From NCBI RefSeq assembly GCF_033096445.1, contig NZ_AP028155.1:2795880-2859879 (forward strand): a DNA stretch of 64,000 bases, in the 5' to 3' direction. The position numbers and the translations under genes were made by a program. Shown here in pieces: positions 5,864-50,831 of the stretch; positions within the stretch are counted from its first letter, which is position 1, and every line of letters starts with the position of its first letter. This DNA is from Butyricimonas faecihominis. GTDB taxonomy: Bacteria > Bacteroidota > Bacteroidia > Bacteroidales > Marinifilaceae. Under the pieces are notes generated by a model. The model saw only the letters and a program-made list of their open reading frames with translations, ran no database searches and was not told the DNA's origin.

Positions 5864-6296
5864 ATATAAATCGTTTATCTTGTAAAATTCGCCATTTTTT
5901 CGATATATCACGAAGATTTACCAATAAATTTAGGAATTTATATACGAGTTTACTGTAAACTAACTCCCTCCCCCCTTCGGGGTACTCCCTCTATAAACAG
6001 AGGGAGAGCTGAAATACTCTCTATATTCGGGAATAGTCACCAGCACCTCCTCTGTTTATGGAGGAGGTGGCACGAAGTGACGGAGGAGTTTGAGTATGAA
6101 AACAAGCATTACCTTAATGGACTGTAAAGTAGTATATAACTACCCAAATTTATAATTAACAGTACGGGAAAGGACAAGAACATTCAAAATTTTGCGGATG
6201 AAATCGCAAAATTATGGCAAATTATGTGGTTACATCCACAAAAATCAGTTCTATGAACTAGCTAAACTAAACACGAAAGTGTATTCACGTCCCCGG
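5864..6296. other. 433-bp intergenic region with a family A repeat and a hairpin
   Basis: No gene is supported here. It holds the leader of the phosphatase gene, a complete family A repeat (5962-6090), and a perfect hairpin AATTTTGCG/CGCAAAATT at 6188-6213. A short rightward open frame from 6192 overlaps the neighbouring gene on the opposite strand and looks like chance. Confidence 0.7.
5962..6090 (+). repeat. Family A palindromic repeat, solo copy, 129 bp
   Basis: Starts AACTCCCTCC and ends GGAGGAGTT. Two internal hairpins are visible. The first has the stem CTCCCTCT, loop ATAAAC and AGAGGGAG. The second has CCTCCTC...GAGGAGG arms around TGTTTATG. The spacer between them reads ATTCGGGAATAGTCACCAGC. 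Length and layout match the copy at 40880-41008. There is no gene inside. Confidence 0.85.
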
Positions 6297-17063: not shown

Positions 17064-17065
17064 CT
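16826..17065 (-). pseudogene. C-terminal remnant of an AlbA_2/HATPase_c_4-type ATP-binding protein
   Basis: The minus-strand frame is open for 79 codons with no start. It reads CRVGLPDPEFHSDGAFVQVV, then a winged-helix-like tail with YSAKEIMEFMGLRDKSNF and LKNYLYS. The C...GLP(D/E)PEF...DG.F pattern followed by a winged helix of this kind is typical of the C-terminus of the large Bacteroidetes proteins with an AlbA_2 (Schlafen-like) N-terminal domain. Everything upstream of this tail is missing, and the first codons overlap the cobS stop. A shift to the next frame past 16826 continues plausible coding for about 15 residues, which suggests a frameshifted end. Confidence 0.6.
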
Positions 17066-17825
17066 AAAACAAAAATTGATGGCGACACCAAATAACTAAC
17101 ACACTCAGATAAAAGACCTGTTCGATGATTAACACGGATGCACCGCAACAATCTCCCGTGTACCCCCCGATCTTGATTTTTAAGAAGAAACGTAAGCCGA
17201 TGGCAGTCAATATGGCGGGGATCATTGCGAAACAGAAACTCGCATCTTTCAGGAAGAAGAAGGGGATCAACGTGATTAATCCCACGATCACGAATATAAA
17301 CGTGCGTACCTTGCTGTAAACAAGTTTTATTTTACTTTCTTCCTCTTTCCGGACATAAGGTAACGTATTTACCATCACGGCCGCACAGAGTTTGGAAAAA
17401 CAATCTGCCGCAATCACGATCGGGAAAATCATGGCCGGGTCGAAACTGGACAACAAGGAATAATAGAGAATAAAGTAGAGTACCAAACCGATGGTCCCGT
17501 AACACCCGATATGCGAATCTTTCATGATAGCTAGAATCTTCTCTTTAGAAGTTCCTCCACCAAACCCGTCAAAAAAGTCTGCCAACCCGTCCTCGTGCAA
17601 CGCCCCGGTCAACAGGATTCGGGCAATAATCGCCAAAATACACGCCACCTCCAAAGGTACAATCTGTGCCGCCAGCCATAAAACGCCCCCCGTCACGGTC
17701 CCCGTCAAAAAACCGACCAAAGGCCAGTATTTAATGACATCCGTGAAATAACGCTTGTCCACGTTGACAATCCGCCACAAAGGTAGTCGAGTAAACATCA
17801 TGATTGCTGCCAAAAGAGAACGCAT
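17064..17825 (-). CDS. cobS: Adenosylcobinamide-GDP ribazoletransferase (cobalamin synthase)
   Basis: A 253-aa integral membrane protein that joins alpha-ribazole (phosphate) to adenosylcobinamide-GDP, the final assembly of the B12 lower loop. The N-terminal AAIMMFTRLP and the signature GALHEDGLADFFDGFGGG (about 96-113), with its metal-binding acidic residues, are clear, followed by KDSHIGCYG and several hydrophobic helices. It is first of the leftward set in this stretch and is separated from cobT by a DUF559 repeat unit. Its stop codon abuts the remnant of an unrelated gene, so its 3' end lies at an old rearrangement point, though the length is normal. Confidence 0.95.
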   Translation of the reverse strand: MRSLLAAIMMFTRLPLWRIVNVDKRYFTDVIKYWPLVGFLTGTVTGGVLWLAAQIVPLEVACILAIIARILLTGALHEDGLADFFDGFGGGTSKEKILAIMKDSHIGCYGTIGLVLYFILYYSLLSSFDPAMIFPIVIAADCFSKLCAAVMVNTLPYVRKEEESKIKLVYSKVRTFIFVIVGLITLIPFFFLKDASFCFAMIPAILTAIGLRFFLKIKIGGYTGDCCGASVLIIEQVFYLSVLVIWCRHQFLF

Positions 17826-17851
17826 ACTGATTTTAGTTTTAATGATTTATG

Positions 17852-17940
17852 ATTTTAGATTTCCACCCACGAAATCACCCCTTCTAGATTTACTACATTC
17901 AACTTTTATCTTTTAGTTTTTACTTTTTATCTTTCTCTGG
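17852..17940. repeat. Short intergenic AT-rich repeat, also near 49475
   Basis: The phrase TTTCCACCCACGAAATCACC followed by CTTCTAGATTT and CTTTTATCTTTTAGTTTTTA is nearly identical to 49478-49545. Both copies lie next to a C-rich palindromic repeat (family A here, family B at 49557), so the AT-rich segment may be a companion of these elements. Confidence 0.6.
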
Positions 17941-18035
17941 CAGAGGGAGAGTTGGATTACTCACCGTCTTCGAGAATGGTTACCAGCTCCTCCTCTGTTT
18001 ATAGAGGAGGTGGCAGCGTAGCTGACGGAGGAGTT
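17941..18035 (-). repeat. Family A repeat, 3' part of the DUF559 unit, truncated
   Basis: Read on the minus strand it runs AACTCCTCCGTCAGC ... CCTCCTCTATAAACAGAGGAGG ... and breaks off after CTCTCCCTCTG, short of a full copy by the distal hairpin arm. The first 37 bases (17999-18035) are also the last codons of the DUF559 gene, encoding TPPSATLPPPL. Confidence 0.8.
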
Positions 18036-18415
18036 TGTTGTATTCCTTCAGCCAATGCTATCCTTATCGTTTCGAGTATATTTTCCGGTTGTTCAAAAAC
18101 TAGCTTGTTTTCAAAACGGAGAGTACGGATTCCATATTTTTGCCAAAGAGATTCCGTCCGGCGTTCATCATTATATTCGCCATCGGAAGTAAAATGGCTT
18201 GCCCCGTCTAATTCAATACAAAGTCGGGCTGTCGGACAATAGAAATCGAGAATATATGTTTCAATACTAAATTGCCTACGCCACCTTAAATTATTTACTT
18301 GTCGTCCCTTGAGGAGTGTCCAAAGGGCCGCTTCCGCTGGTGTACCGTGCAGACGTAGTTCTCTACGGGTTTCTTGTTGATACTTGGCGTTATGGGTGAT
18401 CTTGGGATTTATCAT
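17999..18415 (-). CDS. DUF559 (Vsr-like) endonuclease domain protein, copy 1
   Basis: A 138-aa protein of the DUF559 family, a PD-(D/E)XK fold related to very-short-patch-repair endonucleases. Visible family features are the N-terminal RRELRLHGTPAEAALWTLLK, then LRWRRQFSIETYILDFYCP (Asp near 57), CIELDGASH (Glu/Asp near 69-70, His 74) and the tail YGIRTLRFEN. It is about 86% identical to the copy at 42668. Both sit inside family A repeats, and the last 11 or so residues are encoded by the repeat itself. It lies between cobS and cobT, on their strand. Nuclease activity is inferred from the fold. Confidence 0.88.
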   Translation of the reverse strand: MINPKITHNAKYQQETRRELRLHGTPAEAALWTLLKGRQVNNLRWRRQFSIETYILDFYCPTARLCIELDGASHFTSDGEYNDERRTESLWQKYGIRTLRFENKLVFEQPENILETIRIALAEGIQQTPPSATLPPPL

Positions 18416-18433
18416 AGCTTATTTTTTATGTTG

Positions 18434-18502
18434 AACTCCCTCCCCCCTTCGGGGTACTCCCTCTATAAACAGAGGGAGAGTTGGATTACTCTCCGTCTTC
18501 AG
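18434..18502 (-). repeat. Family A half-repeat, 5' side of the DUF559 unit
   Basis: Contains one full hairpin, CTCCCTCTATAAACAGAGGGAG, with CTCCCCCCTTCGGGG beside it and the tail GGATTACTCTCCGTCTTC. It matches the half-repeat before the second DUF559 gene (42581-42651) in order and distance to the start codon. Confidence 0.82.
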
Positions 18503-18541
18503 GAAACTTTTCATTTTCAATTTTCCACATTCAATTTTCAA

Positions 18542-19582
18542 TTACTTAAAGTATTTCGTTACTGCTGCCGCCTTGAAAGAGGCCATTTCGTTGATCATGT
18601 TCACGGCTGAAACGAGTAAGGGATAAGCGCAAATGGCCCCCGTCCCTTCACCTAGGCGTAAACCGAGATTTAATAAAGGTTGGGCGTGCAAGAAATCCAG
18701 GACTAATTTATGCCCGCATTCGTCGCCTTGGTGACCATAGATGCAATAATCCGTTAAAGCGGGGTACAACATCTTTCCGGCAAGAACACAATTCGTCATG
18801 ATAAAGCCATCCACGATAATAACCATACCCAATTCGGCAGCACGCAACATACCTCCCACGGCAGCCACCATCTCGAAGCCGCCAAAATAACGGATAATGT
18901 CTTTCGGAGTTCCATCCCCCTCGTAATTTTCCATACACCGTTTCAACACATTATACTTGTGTTCAACGCCTTCCCTAGACAACCCACTACCCGCTCCGAC
19001 ACAATCGCTCAAAGGAATACCTGTCAGGTAAGTCATCCACAGGGAAGAAGAAGAGGTGTTGGCAATACCCATTTCCCCGAAACTCACCACGTTCGAACCC
19101 TCATCATGAACCATATCCACGATCTCCACTCCGATCTCGATTGCCCGGTCAAATTCTTCCGGGGTCATGGCGGCCTCGTACAAATAATTTGAAGTCCCCT
19201 TACGGATTTTACGATCAATCAGCCCTTCCATAGGTTCGAAATCCGCATTTACCCCACAATCCACCAATTTAATCCCGAAATGATGTTGACGGGAAAACAT
19301 ATTCACCCCGGCACCCCCTTTGATGAAATTAAAAATCATCTGGGCGGTCACTTCCGGAGCCGAAAAGCTAACCCCCTCTTTCACGATCCCGTGATCGGCC
19401 GCAAAAATAATATTCTGGGGGTTCCGTAACTCCGGGGAAAGCGTTTGCTGTATCAACCCGATCTGGTGTGCTGTTTTTTCAAGTAATCCCAAAGATCCCT
19501 TGGGCTTGGTTAAATTATTAATCTTATCTATCAAAGCCTCAGACAAAGCCTTGTCGGTCTCTTTTATTGTAAAACTTCTCAT
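18542..19582 (-). CDS. cobT: Nicotinate-nucleotide-dimethylbenzimidazole phosphoribosyltransferase
   Basis: A 346-aa enzyme that makes alpha-ribazole phosphate from a lower-ligand base and nicotinate mononucleotide. [12 protein letters not shown] near the N-terminus, FAADHGIV, the nucleotide-site GEMGIANT and the C-terminal [11 protein letters not shown] with the catalytic Glu near residue 315 are all present. I chose the ATG at 19582 ([10 protein letters not shown]). The frame is open 19 codons further up, but those residues are encoded by the AAAATTGAAAATTG repeat and are not conserved. cobU lies 76 bp upstream on the same strand. Base specificity cannot be read from sequence. Confidence 0.96.
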
Positions 19583-31398: not shown

Positions 31399-31512
31399 AC
31401 TACCCCCTCTAACTCCCCCTTACACAGCGGGAGGATGCGCGACATTGAAACATTGATACGATTTCTTGCGTCCGTCTCTCCCCCTGTGCAAGGGGGAGCC
31501 GAAGGGGGTAGT
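31399..31512 (+). repeat. Family B palindromic repeat, 114 bp, copy 1
   Basis: Begins ACTACCCCCTCTAACTCCCC and ends GGGGGAGCCGAAGGGGGTAGT. It has outer arms ACTACCCCCT/AGGGGGTAGT, two inner hairpins with CTCCCCCT-type stems, and a central ACATTGAAACATTGA. The first inner hairpin has one mismatch here (GCGGGAG). Confidence 0.9.
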
Positions 31513-32927: not shown

Positions 32928-33137
32928 AACTCCTCCGGCCTTCGGCCACCTCCTCTATAAACAGAGGAGGAGCTGGTGATTCTTCCCGAAGACAGGGAGT
33001 ATTTCAGCTCTCCCTCTGTTTATAGGGGAAAATCGGCGAGTAAGCGAGAACAGACAGAGAGTTTACTCGTTGTCTGTCGAGCGAGAGCCGATTCGAGACT
33101 GCTTGCAGGCTCAATACCCCGAAGGGGGGAGGGAGTT
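32928..33137 (-). repeat. Family A repeat interrupted by an inner palindrome
   Basis: Both ends match family A (AACTCCTCC ... GGGAGTT), but the copy is 210 bp instead of about 129. An extra segment of roughly 85 bp (about 33026-33115) splits the CTCCCTCTGTTTATAG hairpin. That segment is itself palindromic, with AATCGGCGAG near its start and GAGAGCCGATT in its right part. It lies between the receptor gene (ends 33178) and its terminator. Confidence 0.8.
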
Positions 33138-40832: not shown

Positions 40833-41139
40833 GTCCCCCGCAGGTACCTTTTTTGGGCTGTCCAAAAAGTCATTTTTCAAACTCCCTCCCCCCTTCGGGG
40901 TACTCCCTCTATAAACAGAGGGAGAGTTGAAATACTCCCTGTCTTCAGGGAAAGTCACCAGCTCCTCCTCTGTTTATAGAGGAGGTGGCACGAAGTGACG
41001 GAGGAGTTTTTTGATATAAAATGACTTCTTGGACAGCCCAAAACTCCGTCCGAAGGACGCCCGTCACTTTATAAACTTTACAAACCTTATAAACTTTACA
41101 AACTAAATCGTAACTTTGCTCGAAATAACGTCTTTATTT
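40832..41139. other. 308-bp intergenic region made of three nested inverted repeats
   Basis: From outside in: TATAAAGTT arrays (40790-40832 and 41066-41105); TTTTGGGCTGTCCAAAAAG (40851-40869) against CTTCTTGGACAGCCCAAAA (41025-41043); then a complete family A element (40880-41008). The -7 element of the corrin operon, TAACTTTG at 41111-41118, follows the last arm. No gene is present. Confidence 0.75.
40880..41008 (+). repeat. Family A palindromic repeat, solo copy, 129 bp
   Basis: Same length and orientation as the copy at 5962-6090 and nearly the same sequence, including TCACCAGCTCCTCCTCTGTT and GGCACGAAGTGACGGAGG. It sits at the centre of two outer inverted repeats. Confidence 0.9.
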
Positions 41140-42546
41140 ATGAAACACGGAAAAATATATGTCGCCGGCATTGGGCCGGGTAGCGAGGAAGACATTACCC
41201 CAGCCGTACGGACAGCCATCATGCAATCGGACGTCGTGGTGGGTTACAAATATTACTTTAACTTCATCCGATCCATCGTCCGCCCCGAAACGGAGTGCAT
41301 CGATACCGGGATGAAAAAAGAGAAAGACCGGGCAGCCCTTGCCTTCGAGTATGCCGAACAAGGACACACCGTCTGTGTTGTCAGCTCCGGAGATGCCGGA
41401 ATATACGGGATGGCACCCCTCGTTCTTGAAATGAAACGGGATAAAGCGAGTGATGTTGAGGTAGAAATTCTTCCCGGGATCAGCGCCTTCCAGAAAGGAG
41501 CCGCATTACTGGGAGCCCCTATCGGGCATGACTTTTGCATCATCTCCCTCTCCGACCTCATGACCCCGTGGGAAAAGATCGAGCGTCGCATAGAAGCCGC
41601 CGCATCTGCCGATTTCGTGACTGCCGTCTACAACCCCAAAAGCGAGGGACGCTACTGGCAACTCTATCGCCTGAAAGAACTATTTCTCAAATACCGCGAA
41701 CCGGAAACCCCTGTCGGCTACATCCGCCAAGCCGGACGTGAAGAACAAGAAGTCAAGATCACGACACTACATGATTTCAACCCGGAAGAGATCGATATGT
41801 TCACGATTGTAATCATCGGAAACTCTCAGTCCTACACGTGGAATGACAAGATCATCACTCCCCGCGGTTACTACCGGGAACAATGTACCGAAAACGTTGG
41901 TATCGGGCAGGAAATCATGATGCGCAGTTTCCGCACTATCGAATCCGAATTAAGGGACAAAAACATCCCCCTCGGCCGTAAATGGGCGTTGTTACACGCC
42001 ATCCACACCACTGCCGACTTCGACATGGAGAACATTCTCTACACCGACAATGACGCCGTGGAAACACTCCATACTGCCCTGCACGATGGCAAGGTACGCA
42101 TGATAGTAACCGACGTCACCATGGCAGCCTCCGGAATCCGCAAGGGAGCCCTCGAACGTCTCGGCATTGAAGTCAAATGCTACCTCGACGATCCTCGCGT
42201 GGCAGAAATGGCATCCCGTCTCAAAATCACCCGCACACAAGCCGGCATACGCCTTGCCGTGGAAGAACATCCCGAAGCACTCTACGTTTTCGGTAATGCC
42301 CCCACGGCCCTCATGGAACTATGCAAGCTCATGCGTCAGGATAAGGCCCATCCGATCGGTGTTATCGGTGCGCCCGTCGGTTTTGTCAACGTTCGGGAAT
42401 CCAAACATATGCTGAAATCTTTCACCCGTCTACCCAAGCTCGTCATCGAGGGGCGCAAGGGAGGTAGTAACCTCGCCGCCACCCTCGTCAACGCCATCCT
42501 TTGTTTCGATGACGCCGCACAGCTACGACCGGGAAGAGACCTTTGA
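41140..42546 (+). CDS. cbiHC: Fused precorrin-3B C17-methyltransferase / precorrin-8X methylmutase (CbiH-CbiC)
   Basis: A 468-aa two-enzyme fusion. Residues about 1-245 are CbiH/CobJ, the ring-contracting C17 methyltransferase, with IYVAGIGPGSEEDITPA, VVSSGDAGIYGMA, EILPGISAFQKGAALLGAP and FVTAVYNPKSEGR. Residues about 255-468 are CbiC/CobH, which moves the C11 methyl group to C12 to give cobyrinic acid, with IHTTADFDMENI, VTDVTMAASGI and GAPVGFVNVRESK. I chose the ATG at 41140 because it gives the standard MKHGKIYVAGIG start. It is first of the corrin-ring operon. Confidence 0.95.
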   Translation: MKHGKIYVAGIGPGSEEDITPAVRTAIMQSDVVVGYKYYFNFIRSIVRPETECIDTGMKKEKDRAALAFEYAEQGHTVCVVSSGDAGIYGMAPLVLEMKRDKASDVEVEILPGISAFQKGAALLGAPIGHDFCIISLSDLMTPWEKIERRIEAAASADFVTAVYNPKSEGRYWQLYRLKELFLKYREPETPVGYIRQAGREEQEVKITTLHDFNPEEIDMFTIVIIGNSQSYTWNDKIITPRGYYREQCTENVGIGQEIMMRSFRTIESELRDKNIPLGRKWALLHAIHTTADFDMENILYTDNDAVETLHTALHDGKVRMIVTDVTMAASGIRKGALERLGIEVKCYLDDPRVAEMASRLKITRTQAGIRLAVEEHPEALYVFGNAPTALMELCKLMRQDKAHPIGVIGAPVGFVNVRESKHMLKSFTRLPKLVIEGRKGGSNLAATLVNAILCFDDAAQLRPGRDL

Positions 42547-42580
42547 GGAATTGAAAATGGAGAATTGAAAATTGAAAATT

Positions 42581-42651
42581 TCCCGAAGCCAGTGAGTAAC
42601 CCAGCTCTCCCTCTGTTTATAGAGGGAGTACCCGAAGGGGGAGGGAGTTCA
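42581..42651 (+). repeat. Family A half-repeat, 5' side of the second DUF559 unit
   Basis: CCCGAAGCCAGTGAGTAACC, then CTCTCCCTCTGTTTATAGAG, GGAGTACCCGAAGGGGGAGG and GAGTTC. It has the same order and spacing to the DUF559 start as at 18434-18502 on the other strand. Confidence 0.82.
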
Positions 42652-42667
42652 ACATAAAAGATAAACC

Positions 42668-43084
42668 ATGACAAACCCAAAAATTACCCACAACACGAAA
42701 AAACAACGGGACATTCGTAGGGAACTACACCAGCACGGAACACCAGCGGAAGCGACTCTTTGGAAATTCCTCAAGGGACGACAAATAAATAATTTAAGAT
42801 GGCGTAGACAATTTAGTATCGAAACCTATATTCTCGATTTCTATTGCCCGGCGGCCCGACTTTGCATTGAATTAGACGGGGCAAGTCATTTCACTCCCGA
42901 TGGCGGATATAATGATGAACGCCGGACAGAATCTCTTTGGCAAAAACATGGAATCCGTACTCTCCGTTTTGAAAACAAGCTAATTTTTGAACAACCGGAA
43001 AATATACTCGAAACGATAAGGATAGCACTGACTGAAGGAACGCAACAAACTCCTCCGTCAGCCACGCTGCCACCTCCTCTATAA
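42668..43084 (+). CDS. DUF559 (Vsr-like) endonuclease domain protein, copy 2
   Basis: A 138-aa protein, about 86% identical to the copy at 17999. The probable active-site set is retained: YILDFYCP (Asp near 57), CIELDGASH (69-74) and the RTLRFENK tail. Both copies end in TPPSATLPPPL, encoded by the family A repeat that follows. It sits between cbiHC and cbiET, in the operon's direction, so it is probably co-transcribed with corrin synthesis genes although unrelated to them. Codon use looks ordinary for the window. Differences are spread evenly, which suggests two copies that diverged under constraint. Confidence 0.88.
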   Translation: MTNPKITHNTKKQRDIRRELHQHGTPAEATLWKFLKGRQINNLRWRRQFSIETYILDFYCPAARLCIELDGASHFTPDGGYNDERRTESLWQKHGIRTLRFENKLIFEQPENILETIRIALTEGTQQTPPSATLPPPL

Positions 43085-43178
43085 ACAGAGGAGGAGCTGG
43101 TAACCATTCCCGAAGATGGTGAGTAATCCAACTCTCCCTCTGTTTATAGAGGGAGTACGGCGGAACCGGGAGAGAGTT
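43048..43178 (-). repeat. Family A repeat, 3' side of the second DUF559 unit, 131 bp
   Basis: A complete copy in the orientation AACTCCTCCGTCAGCC ... GGGAGAGAGTT. Its first 37 bases are DUF559 codons. The last arm carries base changes (TACGGCGGAACCGGG instead of TACCCCGAAGGGGGG) that weaken the outer pairing. Confidence 0.85.
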
Positions 43179-43202
43179 AAATCTAAAATTATTAAATCTA
43201 AA

Positions 43203-44387
43203 ATGAATAACTTCACAATCATCGGTATAGATGACAAGGATCATCCCGAATTACCGGAACAGGCCCGGGCGGCCATCGCCACCCATCACGTTTTTTCCGG
43301 GGGGAAAAGGCACCACGAGATCATGCGTGACAACCTGCCGGAGGCCCACCTCTGGATCGACATCACCGTCCCGCTGGACGAGGTGTTCCGCCAATACGAG
43401 AACCACCCGGACATCGTTGTTTTCGCCTCCGGGGACCCACTCTTTTTCGGTTTCGCCAACACCGTACTCAAACGTCTCCCCGACGCCAAGATCACCCTGA
43501 TTCCCACGTTCAACTCCTTGCAGACACTGGCTCACCGCCTCCTGCTCCCCTACCATGATATGCACGTCGTTTCCCTCACCGGGAGACCGTGGCACGAGTT
43601 CGACCGAGCACTCATCGAGGGACAGGAGAAAATCGGCGTGCTTACCGACCGGGAACACACGCCGACCACCATCGCCGAACGTATGCTCCGTTACGGGTAT
43701 GACAACTACATCATGTACGTCGGTGAAGCCCTCGGCAGTGACACCGAAACCGTCCGCGTCCTCGTTCCCGATGATGCCACGGCCCTCACCTTCCGCCACC
43801 CGAACTGCCTCATTCTCTACCGCACGTACGAGCGTCAGCGGCATTTCGGCATTCCCGAAAGCGACTTCGAACTGCTCGACGGACGTGTCAACATGATCAC
43901 GAAAGCACCGATCCGCCTGCTCACGCTGGCACAACTGGATCTTCGTCGCCATCAAACCCTGTGGGACATCGGGTTCTGCACGGGTTCCGTCTCCATCGAG
44001 GCGAAACTCCAGTTCCCTCACCTGCACGTCGTGGCTTTCGAGCAACGCCCCGAGGGCAAGCGCCTCATGGAACTCAACGCTGCCCGTTTCGGGACGCCCG
44101 GCATCATCACCCGCATCGGAGACTTCCTGCAGGCTGAACTAGACGACCTTCCCGCCCCCGACGCCGTATTCATCGGCGGCCACGGCGGCCACATGGATCA
44201 AATCGTCCGGAAAGTCAGCGAACACCTGCTCCCGGACGGAATTATCGTCTTCAATTCCGTCTCTAAGCAAAGTCAGGAATTATTCGCCGAAACCGTCAAA
44301 CAACACGGCTTCACTCTCGTCAGCACCCAACACGTGGCCATCGATGACCACAACCCCATATTAATCATGAAAGCACAAAAAATATAA
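43203..44387 (+). CDS. cbiET: Fused cobalt-precorrin-7 C5-methyltransferase / C15-methyltransferase-decarboxylase (CbiE-CbiT, CobL type)
   Basis: A 394-aa fusion. CbiE (about 1-200) has FTIIGIDD, FSGGKRHHEIM, VVFASGDPLFFG and VVSLTGRPWHEF. CbiT (about 215-394) has MITKAPIRLLTLAQLDLR, the SAM-binding LWDIGFCTGSVSIEA and FIGGHGGHMD. It methylates C5 and C15 and removes the acetate carboxyl. I chose the ATG at 43203 (MNNFTIIG). The 29 in-frame codons upstream belong to the family A repeat and AATCTAAAAT sequence. The next gene starts 4 bp after its stop. Confidence 0.95.
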   Translation: MNNFTIIGIDDKDHPELPEQARAAIATHHVFSGGKRHHEIMRDNLPEAHLWIDITVPLDEVFRQYENHPDIVVFASGDPLFFGFANTVLKRLPDAKITLIPTFNSLQTLAHRLLLPYHDMHVVSLTGRPWHEFDRALIEGQEKIGVLTDREHTPTTIAERMLRYGYDNYIMYVGEALGSDTETVRVLVPDDATALTFRHPNCLILYRTYERQRHFGIPESDFELLDGRVNMITKAPIRLLTLAQLDLRRHQTLWDIGFCTGSVSIEAKLQFPHLHVVAFEQRPEGKRLMELNAARFGTPGIITRIGDFLQAELDDLPAPDAVFIGGHGGHMDQIVRKVSEHLLPDGIIVFNSVSKQSQELFAETVKQHGFTLVSTQHVAIDDHNPILIMKAQKI

Positions 44388-46243: not shown

Positions 46244-46357
46244 ACTACCCCCACCGGCTCCCCCTTGCACAGGGGGAGAAACGAACGCAAGAAATCGTAT
46301 CAATGTTTCAATGTAGCGCATCCTCCCCCTGTGTAAGGGGGAGTTAGAGGGGGTAGT
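46244..46357 (-). repeat. Family B palindromic repeat, 114 bp, copy 2 (inverted)
   Basis: The same element as at 31399, in reverse orientation: ACTACCCCCACCGGCTCCCC ... GGGGGAGTTAGAGGGGGTAGT. It contains CAATGTTTCAATGTAGCGC in the centre. It fills most of the gap between cbiGF and cbiJD. Confidence 0.9.
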
Positions 46358-49556: not shown

Positions 49557-49670
49557 ACTACCCCCTCTAACTCCCCCTTGCACAGGGGGAGGACATACTA
49601 CATTGAAACATTGAGGCGCTTTCTTGCGTTCGTTTCTCCCCCTGTGCAAGGGGGAGCCAAAGGGGGTAGT
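49557..49670 (+). repeat. Family B palindromic repeat, 114 bp, copy 3
   Basis: ACTACCCCCTCTAACTCCCC ... GGGGGAGCCAAAGGGGGTAGT with CTACATTGAAACATTGAGGC in the centre. It lies between the small protein gene and btuD, which converge. Confidence 0.9.
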
Positions 49671-50717: not shown

Positions 50718-50831
50718 ACTACCCCCTCTAACTCCCCCTTACACAGGGGGAGAATGCGCTACATTGAAACATAAAAGCGACTTCTTTCGTTCGTCTCACC
50801 CCCTATGCAAGGGGGAGCTGGTGGGGGTAGT
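50718..50831 (+). repeat. Family B palindromic repeat, 114 bp, copy 4
   Basis: ACTACCCCCTCTAACTCCCC ... GGGGGAGCTGGTGGGGGTAGT with CTACATTGAAACATAAAAGC in the centre. It sits inside the btu operon between btuC and btuD, so it would be transcribed. Confidence 0.9.

Follow-up and report, generated by a model that had tools for sequence, protein, structure and literature searches.

Within the window, i.e., the whole 64,000-nucleotide stretch of DNA that was analysed, lie two DUF559 genes, and a profile search of the 4.85-Mb single-contig genome returned these two as its only PF04480 matches (89 and 92.6 bits). Both reading frames are free of internal stops, and both are set between palindromic repeats in the same manner (Table 1). 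On the 5′ side of each gene stands a half-element that begins at an identical point, TTTCC[C/T]GAAG, within the middle hairpin of the repeat; on the 3′ side follows a repeat whose DNA codes for TPPSATLPPPL, the C-terminus of both proteins, and within whose hairpin the stop codon falls. The order of a unit is half-middle, Y, DUF559 gene, X, middle, Y, with the last codons and the stop in X. The gene is thus placed between two directly oriented solo repeats, the left of which is without its first half in both units, and the right of which is truncated in the 17999 unit only. The ORFs, the PF04480 matches and the alignment of the flanks confirm the common layout of half-repeat, gene and C-terminus-encoding repeat that the initial annotation had described, and its span for unit 1, 42581-43178, was right within one base (42580-43178). 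The dN/dS between the two genes is about 0.19 (0.072/0.376, NG86, 127 codons), and the protein is therefore under purifying selection.

Table 1. Repeat and gene features of the window with their positions and strands.
Feature	Position	Strand	Remarks
Left half-solo, unit 1	42580..42649	+	Second half of middle hairpin and Y double hairpin, end GGGAGTT; aligns to 43107-43178; left boundary as in unit 2
DUF559 nuclease gene (Vsr-like / EDxHD-type), unit 1	42668..43084	+	138 aa; PF04480
Right solo, unit 1 (X end, middle hairpin, Y end)	43048..43178	+	Encodes the protein's final residues and stop
Left (5′) half-solo, unit 2	18434..18505	-	
DUF559 nuclease gene, unit 2	17999..18415	-	138 aa; 86% aa identity to unit 1
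Right (3′) solo, unit 2	17941..18035	-	Ends inside its Y hairpin
Solo	5963..6090	+	No counterpart at the site in G001, G003, G004
Solo, one end degenerate	32929..33056	-	Common to G001 (unbroken alignment)
Solo within larger inverted-repeat unit	40880..41008	+	No counterpart at the site in G001, G003
MITE-like ~185-bp unit, inverted ends GGGCTGTCCAAAAAGTCATTTT	40855..41039	.	Contains the 40880 solo

Both units are hosted by gaps between cobalamin genes, named by NCBIfam: cobS-cobT (17064-19561) and cobJ-cbiE/T (41119-44387). Two genes that host cassettes elsewhere, metH and icmF, belong to B12-dependent enzymes; the link to the cobalamin gaps is possibly a coincidence.

The solo repeat and its copies

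The full solo is a double hairpin of about 130 bp (~129 bp) with the inverted ends AACTCC...GGAGTT. From AACTCC... it runs through a small hairpin, a hairpin with its loop around TATAAACA and a weak middle hairpin, and then through the same parts in reverse to ...GGAGTT. Folded as single-stranded DNA it reaches -33.4 kcal/mol, versus -17.0 kcal/mol in shuffles (z = -6.0). With at most three mismatches, the hairpin CTCCCTCTATAAACAGAGGGAG occurs 6 times in the window versus 0 times in each of 100 shuffles, and its 14-nt core 11 times versus a shuffle mean of 0.27. Genome-wide, the exact hairpin core was counted 64 times on the plus and 67 times on the minus strand (reversed control pattern, 0/0). 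A search with the solo as query, in which 40 of 95 candidates were scored, gave at least 39 full-length copies in the genome. The gene-less solos annotated near 5962, 32928 and 40880 are real, the 32928 copy having one degenerate end.

As X-middle-Y elements, the solos are palindromes dispersed as inverted pairs, which is a feature of REPINs, and their terminal inverted repeats are a feature of MITEs. Inspected by eye, the solo alignment shows no GT[A/G]G foot on the 5′ side of its hairpins. MITEs are likewise short and non-autonomous with inverted ends, and the ~185-bp unit around the 40880 solo resembles one; on the other hand, inspection of 12 solos by eye revealed no target-site duplication, and no matching transposase was identified. 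As for an autonomous partner of such a MITE, the DUF559 units share the repeat, but their gene lies between two solos and not inside one. Among the 38 solos listed for this genome, 30 match the copy in the window past both ends into the inverted arms of the ~185-bp unit, three on one side and five on neither, so that at least some of the copies in this genome are owed to a larger unit having ends of its own, and much of the copy number was probably spread by something else. Within the genus, many solos have probably since been carried further inside the larger MITE-like unit.

The inverted arms outside many of the solos (GGGxTGTCCxAAAAGTCATTTT and variants; 40855-41039, L003, L007, L009, L019, L031) vary between copies and are largely complementary within a copy, a complementarity that is not expected from plain MITE decay. 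A second double-hairpin family is also present in the window (31415-31496, 46260-46341, 49573-49654, 50734-50815), with pairs of CCCCCTTGCACAGGGGG about 65 bp apart and the ends ACTACCCCC/GGGGGTAGT; it has the same grammar, and no DUF559 of its own is known in this genome. Beside unit 1, at 42548-42579 and 43179-43202, are A/T-rich stutters (AATTGAAAATTGAAAAT, AAATCTAAAAT), and several intergenic elements are framed by such stutters. Those beside unit 1 were rejected as part of the element because sister species keep them without the unit.

Turnover of the elements in sister species

Gene order in most of the window is kept in stretches of G001 (94-98% identity in the main alignments), G003, G004 and G005. 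None of the five sister species (G001-G005) has unit 1 at the corresponding site: in G001 the site carries a different double-hairpin element, whose hairpin is that of the second family of the window, and in G002, G003, G004 and G005 no double-hairpin element is found there. The cobS-cobT site of unit 2 holds, in G001, a solo from the unit's own family beside a 381-aa ORF that we take to be transposase-like; G003 and G004 have second-family pieces there, and G005 has neither. The presence or absence of elements site by site thus indicates that gains and losses occur even between sister species. Unit 1 gave no match in the plasmid collection, and plasmid-borne transfer of the unit was rejected on this ground.

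The hairpin of the DUF559 units is present in all six genomes of the genus and was found elsewhere once each in G007 and G016. The initial annotation had held that repeats abundant in genomes lacking any DUF559 gene would speak against its proposal, and in part this is what we found: the exact cores number 65/76 on the two strands in G001 and 35/34 in G005, with no DUF559 gene in either. A search for DUF559 remnants with the unit-1 protein (E up to 1) gave three weak matches in G001 and none in G002-G005. The best of the three (L289, the one inspected) turned out to be the repeat itself read in frame, and decayed DUF559 genes were rejected as the source of the sister repeats. The repeats may be outliving or outrunning the nuclease. 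They could also form a MITE/REP population independent of the gene, with insertions at A/T-rich hot spots between genes and within other copies, and with DUF559 often caught between, as would agree with the plentiful repeats without DUF559 in G001, G005, G018 and G016, with the position of most listed solos of this genome inside a larger inverted-repeat unit, and with the different palindromic elements held by the cobS-cobT gap in different species. We consider this explanation unlikely in view of the position of the gene's stop and last codons within the repeat and of three further observations described below.

DUF559 genes and palindromes in other bacteria

DUF559 is present in 20 of 59 genomes, this genome included, and in 222 of 395 Bacteroidota genomes. 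Inspected by eye, the flanks of the relatives' genes show palindromes at both ends of many of them, differing by subfamily. Framing was measured as the longest exact stretch, direct or inverted, common to the 300-bp 5′ and 3′ flanks, in two samples picked regardless of flanks. The first comprised the best 80 of 574 confirmed loci (Bacteroidota and several other phyla), of which 71 were usable and nine lay near contig ends. Here, at least 16 bp were common to the flanks of 33/71 DUF559 genes versus 5/760 control ORFs of the same loci, and at least 12 bp to those of 47/71 versus 43/760. The second consisted of 40 places in the order of a Bacteroidota-wide listing, skipping places already with loci, mostly second places per genome, and long open frames; among its 39 usable places the values were 19/39 versus 0/54 (at least 16 bp) and 26/39 versus 4/54 (at least 12 bp). 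RAYT genes, examined as a positive control in slightly longer windows (n = 20), gave 8/20 and 11/20, respectively. Therefore, we conclude that about half of the DUF559 genes are framed, at a rate similar to that of RAYT genes. About half have no 16-bp flank match in both samples, and L049, L050, L051 and others among L033-L060 showed no clear frame by eye. A hairpin score of at least 22 on both sides was a weaker marker than matching flanks (18/71 versus 3/760). Framing by hairpins, which the initial annotation had suggested looking for in related genomes, is thus far more frequent for DUF559 than for neighbouring ORFs, and the rarity of bracketed control ORFs argues against genes being caught between independently inserting repeats.

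Each DUF559 subfamily has its own hairpin. The nearest DUF559 from another genus (G032, 67% identical) shows the same grammar with another hairpin, which was counted 11/11 in G032, 8/11 in G018 (no DUF559), 1/0 in G028 and 0 in the six genomes of the genus studied here, and the hairpin of the window units has a count of 0 in G032. A third hairpin occurs in the DUF559-less G016 (9/3). In other DUF559 genomes the hairpin copy numbers are modest, one family being mostly clustered at the gene (G026). CCCCTAAAGGGGCTT was found in 12 of the 59 genomes, nine of which have DUF559 versus 11 of the 47 others, and CCCTCTCCTTNAGGAGAGGG in 10, eight of them with DUF559 versus 12 of the 49 others, both comparisons being confounded by kinship. 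A strict co-occurrence of hairpin and DUF559 among relatives was rejected, the association being only partial (positive but loose). That the hairpin family tracks the DUF559 subfamily again speaks against a repeat population independent of the gene. Taken together, the generality of the framing and the hairpin per subfamily fit a unit of the REP/RAYT type in which a nuclease has taken the transposase's place, and the arrangement guessed in the initial annotation is supported by the framing relative to controls, the RAYT-like rate and the subfamily-specific hairpins.

The repeats could also be ordinary REPs moved by a Y1/HuH transposase: PF01797 (RAYT-type) matches are found in 36/59 relatives, and REPs near RAYTs are common. 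Against this, no PF01797 match was found in G000 (the genome of the window), G001, G002, G004 or G005, and in seven relatives with both gene types the exact strings of the DUF559 hairpins were found at 0/17 RAYT loci, where the flanks showed other repeats by eye. A RAYT as the mover was rejected for the genome of the window, which has no PF01797 match, and is unsupported in the relatives; we regard it as highly improbable. The gene that the repeats frame is a PF04480 gene.

Among the best 150 DUF559 places Bacteroidota-wide, 46 lie in open frames of at least 400 aa. In leuS, the gene of leucyl-tRNA synthetase, DUF559 is inserted in frame at two sites: site 1 in six loci, with a second DUF559 in L163, and site 2 in seven loci including L163, whose gene runs off the contig; in L120, site 2 is filled and site 1 empty. 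In-frame copies were also found in metH (methionine synthase; eight loci, one site), recG (three loci), hsdR (six loci, five at one site) and icmF (L261), and in nine loci DUF559 is fused to the N-terminus of HisF. NCBIfam confirmed leuS in L264 and L268, metH in L263, recG in L271, hsdR in L275, icmF in L261 and hisF in L098; the remaining host genes are presumed from known sequence motifs. By Pfam, DUF559 stands between domains of the host protein, and the same is seen for HsdM, Type ISP and Eco57I-type enzymes. Hairpins make up the DNA of the joints, which codes for linkers such as SPSPxGEG. In the 42 truly internal cases, a hairpin score of at least 18 was reached at the 5′ joint in 32/42, at the 3′ joint in 31/42 and at both in 26/42, versus 23/455 same-gene windows. 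L194, L201, L209, L219 and L273 are among the cases that failed this measure, and their joints show imperfect or short hairpins by eye. These insertions bring gene and palindromes jointly, which is the last of the points against a mere trapping of the gene between repeats.

The locus with DUF559 sequence at both leuS sites, L163, is from a Sphingobacteriales MAG. The HisF fusions (L098, L109, L118, L119, L125, L131, L134, L158, L164) are from Pedobacter and Mucilaginibacter and have a glycine-rich linker.

A quick tree was built from 182 DUF559 domains; with about 105 columns, it can be expected to have little support. Four changes are needed on it for leuS site 1 (six rows), four for site 2 (seven rows), two for metH (eight rows), two for hsdR and one each for recG and hisF; ORF-embedded versus free DUF559 requires 14 changes. 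The embedded cassettes thus appear to be partly inherited by site and partly the result of repeated arrival at the same sites. Such a pattern could come from a homing gene that enters cassette-free alleles at fixed sites through recombination, with the palindromes as convenient ends (linkers, terminators) and not as the target. The occupation of the same leuS and metH sites in several genomes and the changes on the tree (leuS 4 + 4, metH 2) are in keeping with this, but same-site clusters may also be simple inheritance, and the subfamily-specific hairpins with their dispersed solos would be left unexplained.

The nuclease and the possible mode of spread

The AlphaFold2 model of the protein has a mean pLDDT of 79.5, with low confidence at both ends. 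Two solved structures matched best: the endonuclease-like protein 3hrl (HMM E 1.9e-30) and, with an HMM E of 1.6e-5 and a Foldseek E of 4.3e-4, the catalytic domain of the homing endonuclease I-Bth0305I (3r3p). Nine residues do not vary in either of two alignments (of 15 and of 34 sequences), namely T25, E28, D57, E68, G71, H74, D83, R86 and R100, among which E28, D57, H74 and D83 are the putative EDxHD residues. Pfam gave only DUF559 and a sub-threshold REase match on the 138-aa protein, and no separate DNA-binding domain. PMC3943268 describes an extra DNA-binding domain in the known EDxHD enzymes. The homology to I-Bth0305I speaks for the homing gene, but a bare catalytic domain would set the protein apart from those enzymes, and overall we find a gene homing to fixed sites, with the palindromes as mere ends, rather improbable.

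DUF559 could also be a repair nuclease of the Vsr kind, or else a solitary restriction-type enzyme, with the hairpins as promoter or terminator signals. Terminators would not yield long two-sided matches or dispersed solos, and in-frame copies in leuS or metH need no terminator; we hold this to be very unlikely, notwithstanding a weak Vsr fold match (Foldseek E 0.049), a weak PADLOC match to a methyl-directed REase (E 7e-4) and the case of Caulobacter VsrA. The latter, as described in PMC12907096, is a DUF559 protein with a Vsr-like fold and triggers an SOS response when a cytosine methylase is absent; it is like our proteins in domain and fold and differs in its described role, which is mismatch repair.

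The best reading of the data is a nuclease-driven mobile palindrome system, REP/RAYT-like or homing-like, that fits neither family outright. The window would accordingly contain a mobile cassette twice, each time with a PD-(D/E)XK/EDxHD-type nuclease (DUF559) framed by REPIN-like double hairpins, a reading to which we assign a probability of about 0.55, and the dispersed solos are best explained as gene-less relatives of the cassette ends. That nuclease and repeats are functionally linked we consider likely. In the mechanism that we propose, the nuclease would recognise its cognate hairpin or the cruciform of it and cut or nick at the hairpin or in a related target, and repair of the break would then copy in the palindrome, either alone or together with the gene; the copying route could be homing, hairpin-primed repair or otherwise. 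This would parallel the action of a RAYT on REPs, except that HuH transposition would be replaced by hydrolytic nuclease chemistry and repair by the host, or alternatively that of a homing endonuclease for which the palindromes at its flanks serve as sites. We would give the hairpin-cutting mechanism, as stated, little better than an even chance at most. The self-spreading or repeat-maintaining unit of the initial annotation gains from the general framing and loses from the repeat-rich sisters without DUF559 and from the 30/38 listed solos in the larger unit.

Among known systems, REP/REPIN with RAYT (TnpA-REP, 'REPtron') is alike in several respects: a genome has a single enzyme gene or a few, the palindromes around these genes are also scattered elsewhere as inverted pairs, every enzyme type has a palindrome family of its own, and the flank-match rate is similar. 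In contrast, the DUF559 enzyme is a PD-(D/E)XK-type nuclease and not a HuH tyrosine transposase, the palindromes differ, and DUF559 cassettes occur in frame inside genes. With EDxHD homing endonucleases (I-Bth0305I) DUF559 shares a homologous catalytic domain and recurring insertion sites in conserved genes, but it has no recognised intron or intein and no extra Pfam DNA-binding domain, and the palindromes that frame it are also found on their own. Palindromic DNA inserted in frame in protein genes is likewise seen in the Rickettsia palindromic elements, which are not known to have a nuclease gene. A full-text literature search, outside which subscription papers and preprint servers largely lay, found no report of DUF559 with palindromic repeats, in line with the initial annotation, which knew of no described system of this kind.

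A more far-reaching proposal, which we put forward tentatively and at somewhat less than even odds, is that the DUF559 family drives a large, mostly unrecognised class of bacterial palindromic mobile DNA. Each subfamily would have its own hairpin and would spread gene-bearing cassettes and gene-less REPIN-like solos. Since the palindromes would code for linkers that the host protein tolerates, such cassettes could enter essential genes in frame with no need for splicing. Some palindromic repeats have no known mover, and a second palindrome-tied enzyme class would be a candidate mover for such families. If true, this would point to what a widespread domain of unknown function may do, and it would mean that selfish DNA can settle in essential genes such as leuS without splicing. 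That related nuclease genes across many bacteria are framed alike, each by its own repeats and in some cases within essential genes, suggests a little-known kind of selfish DNA.
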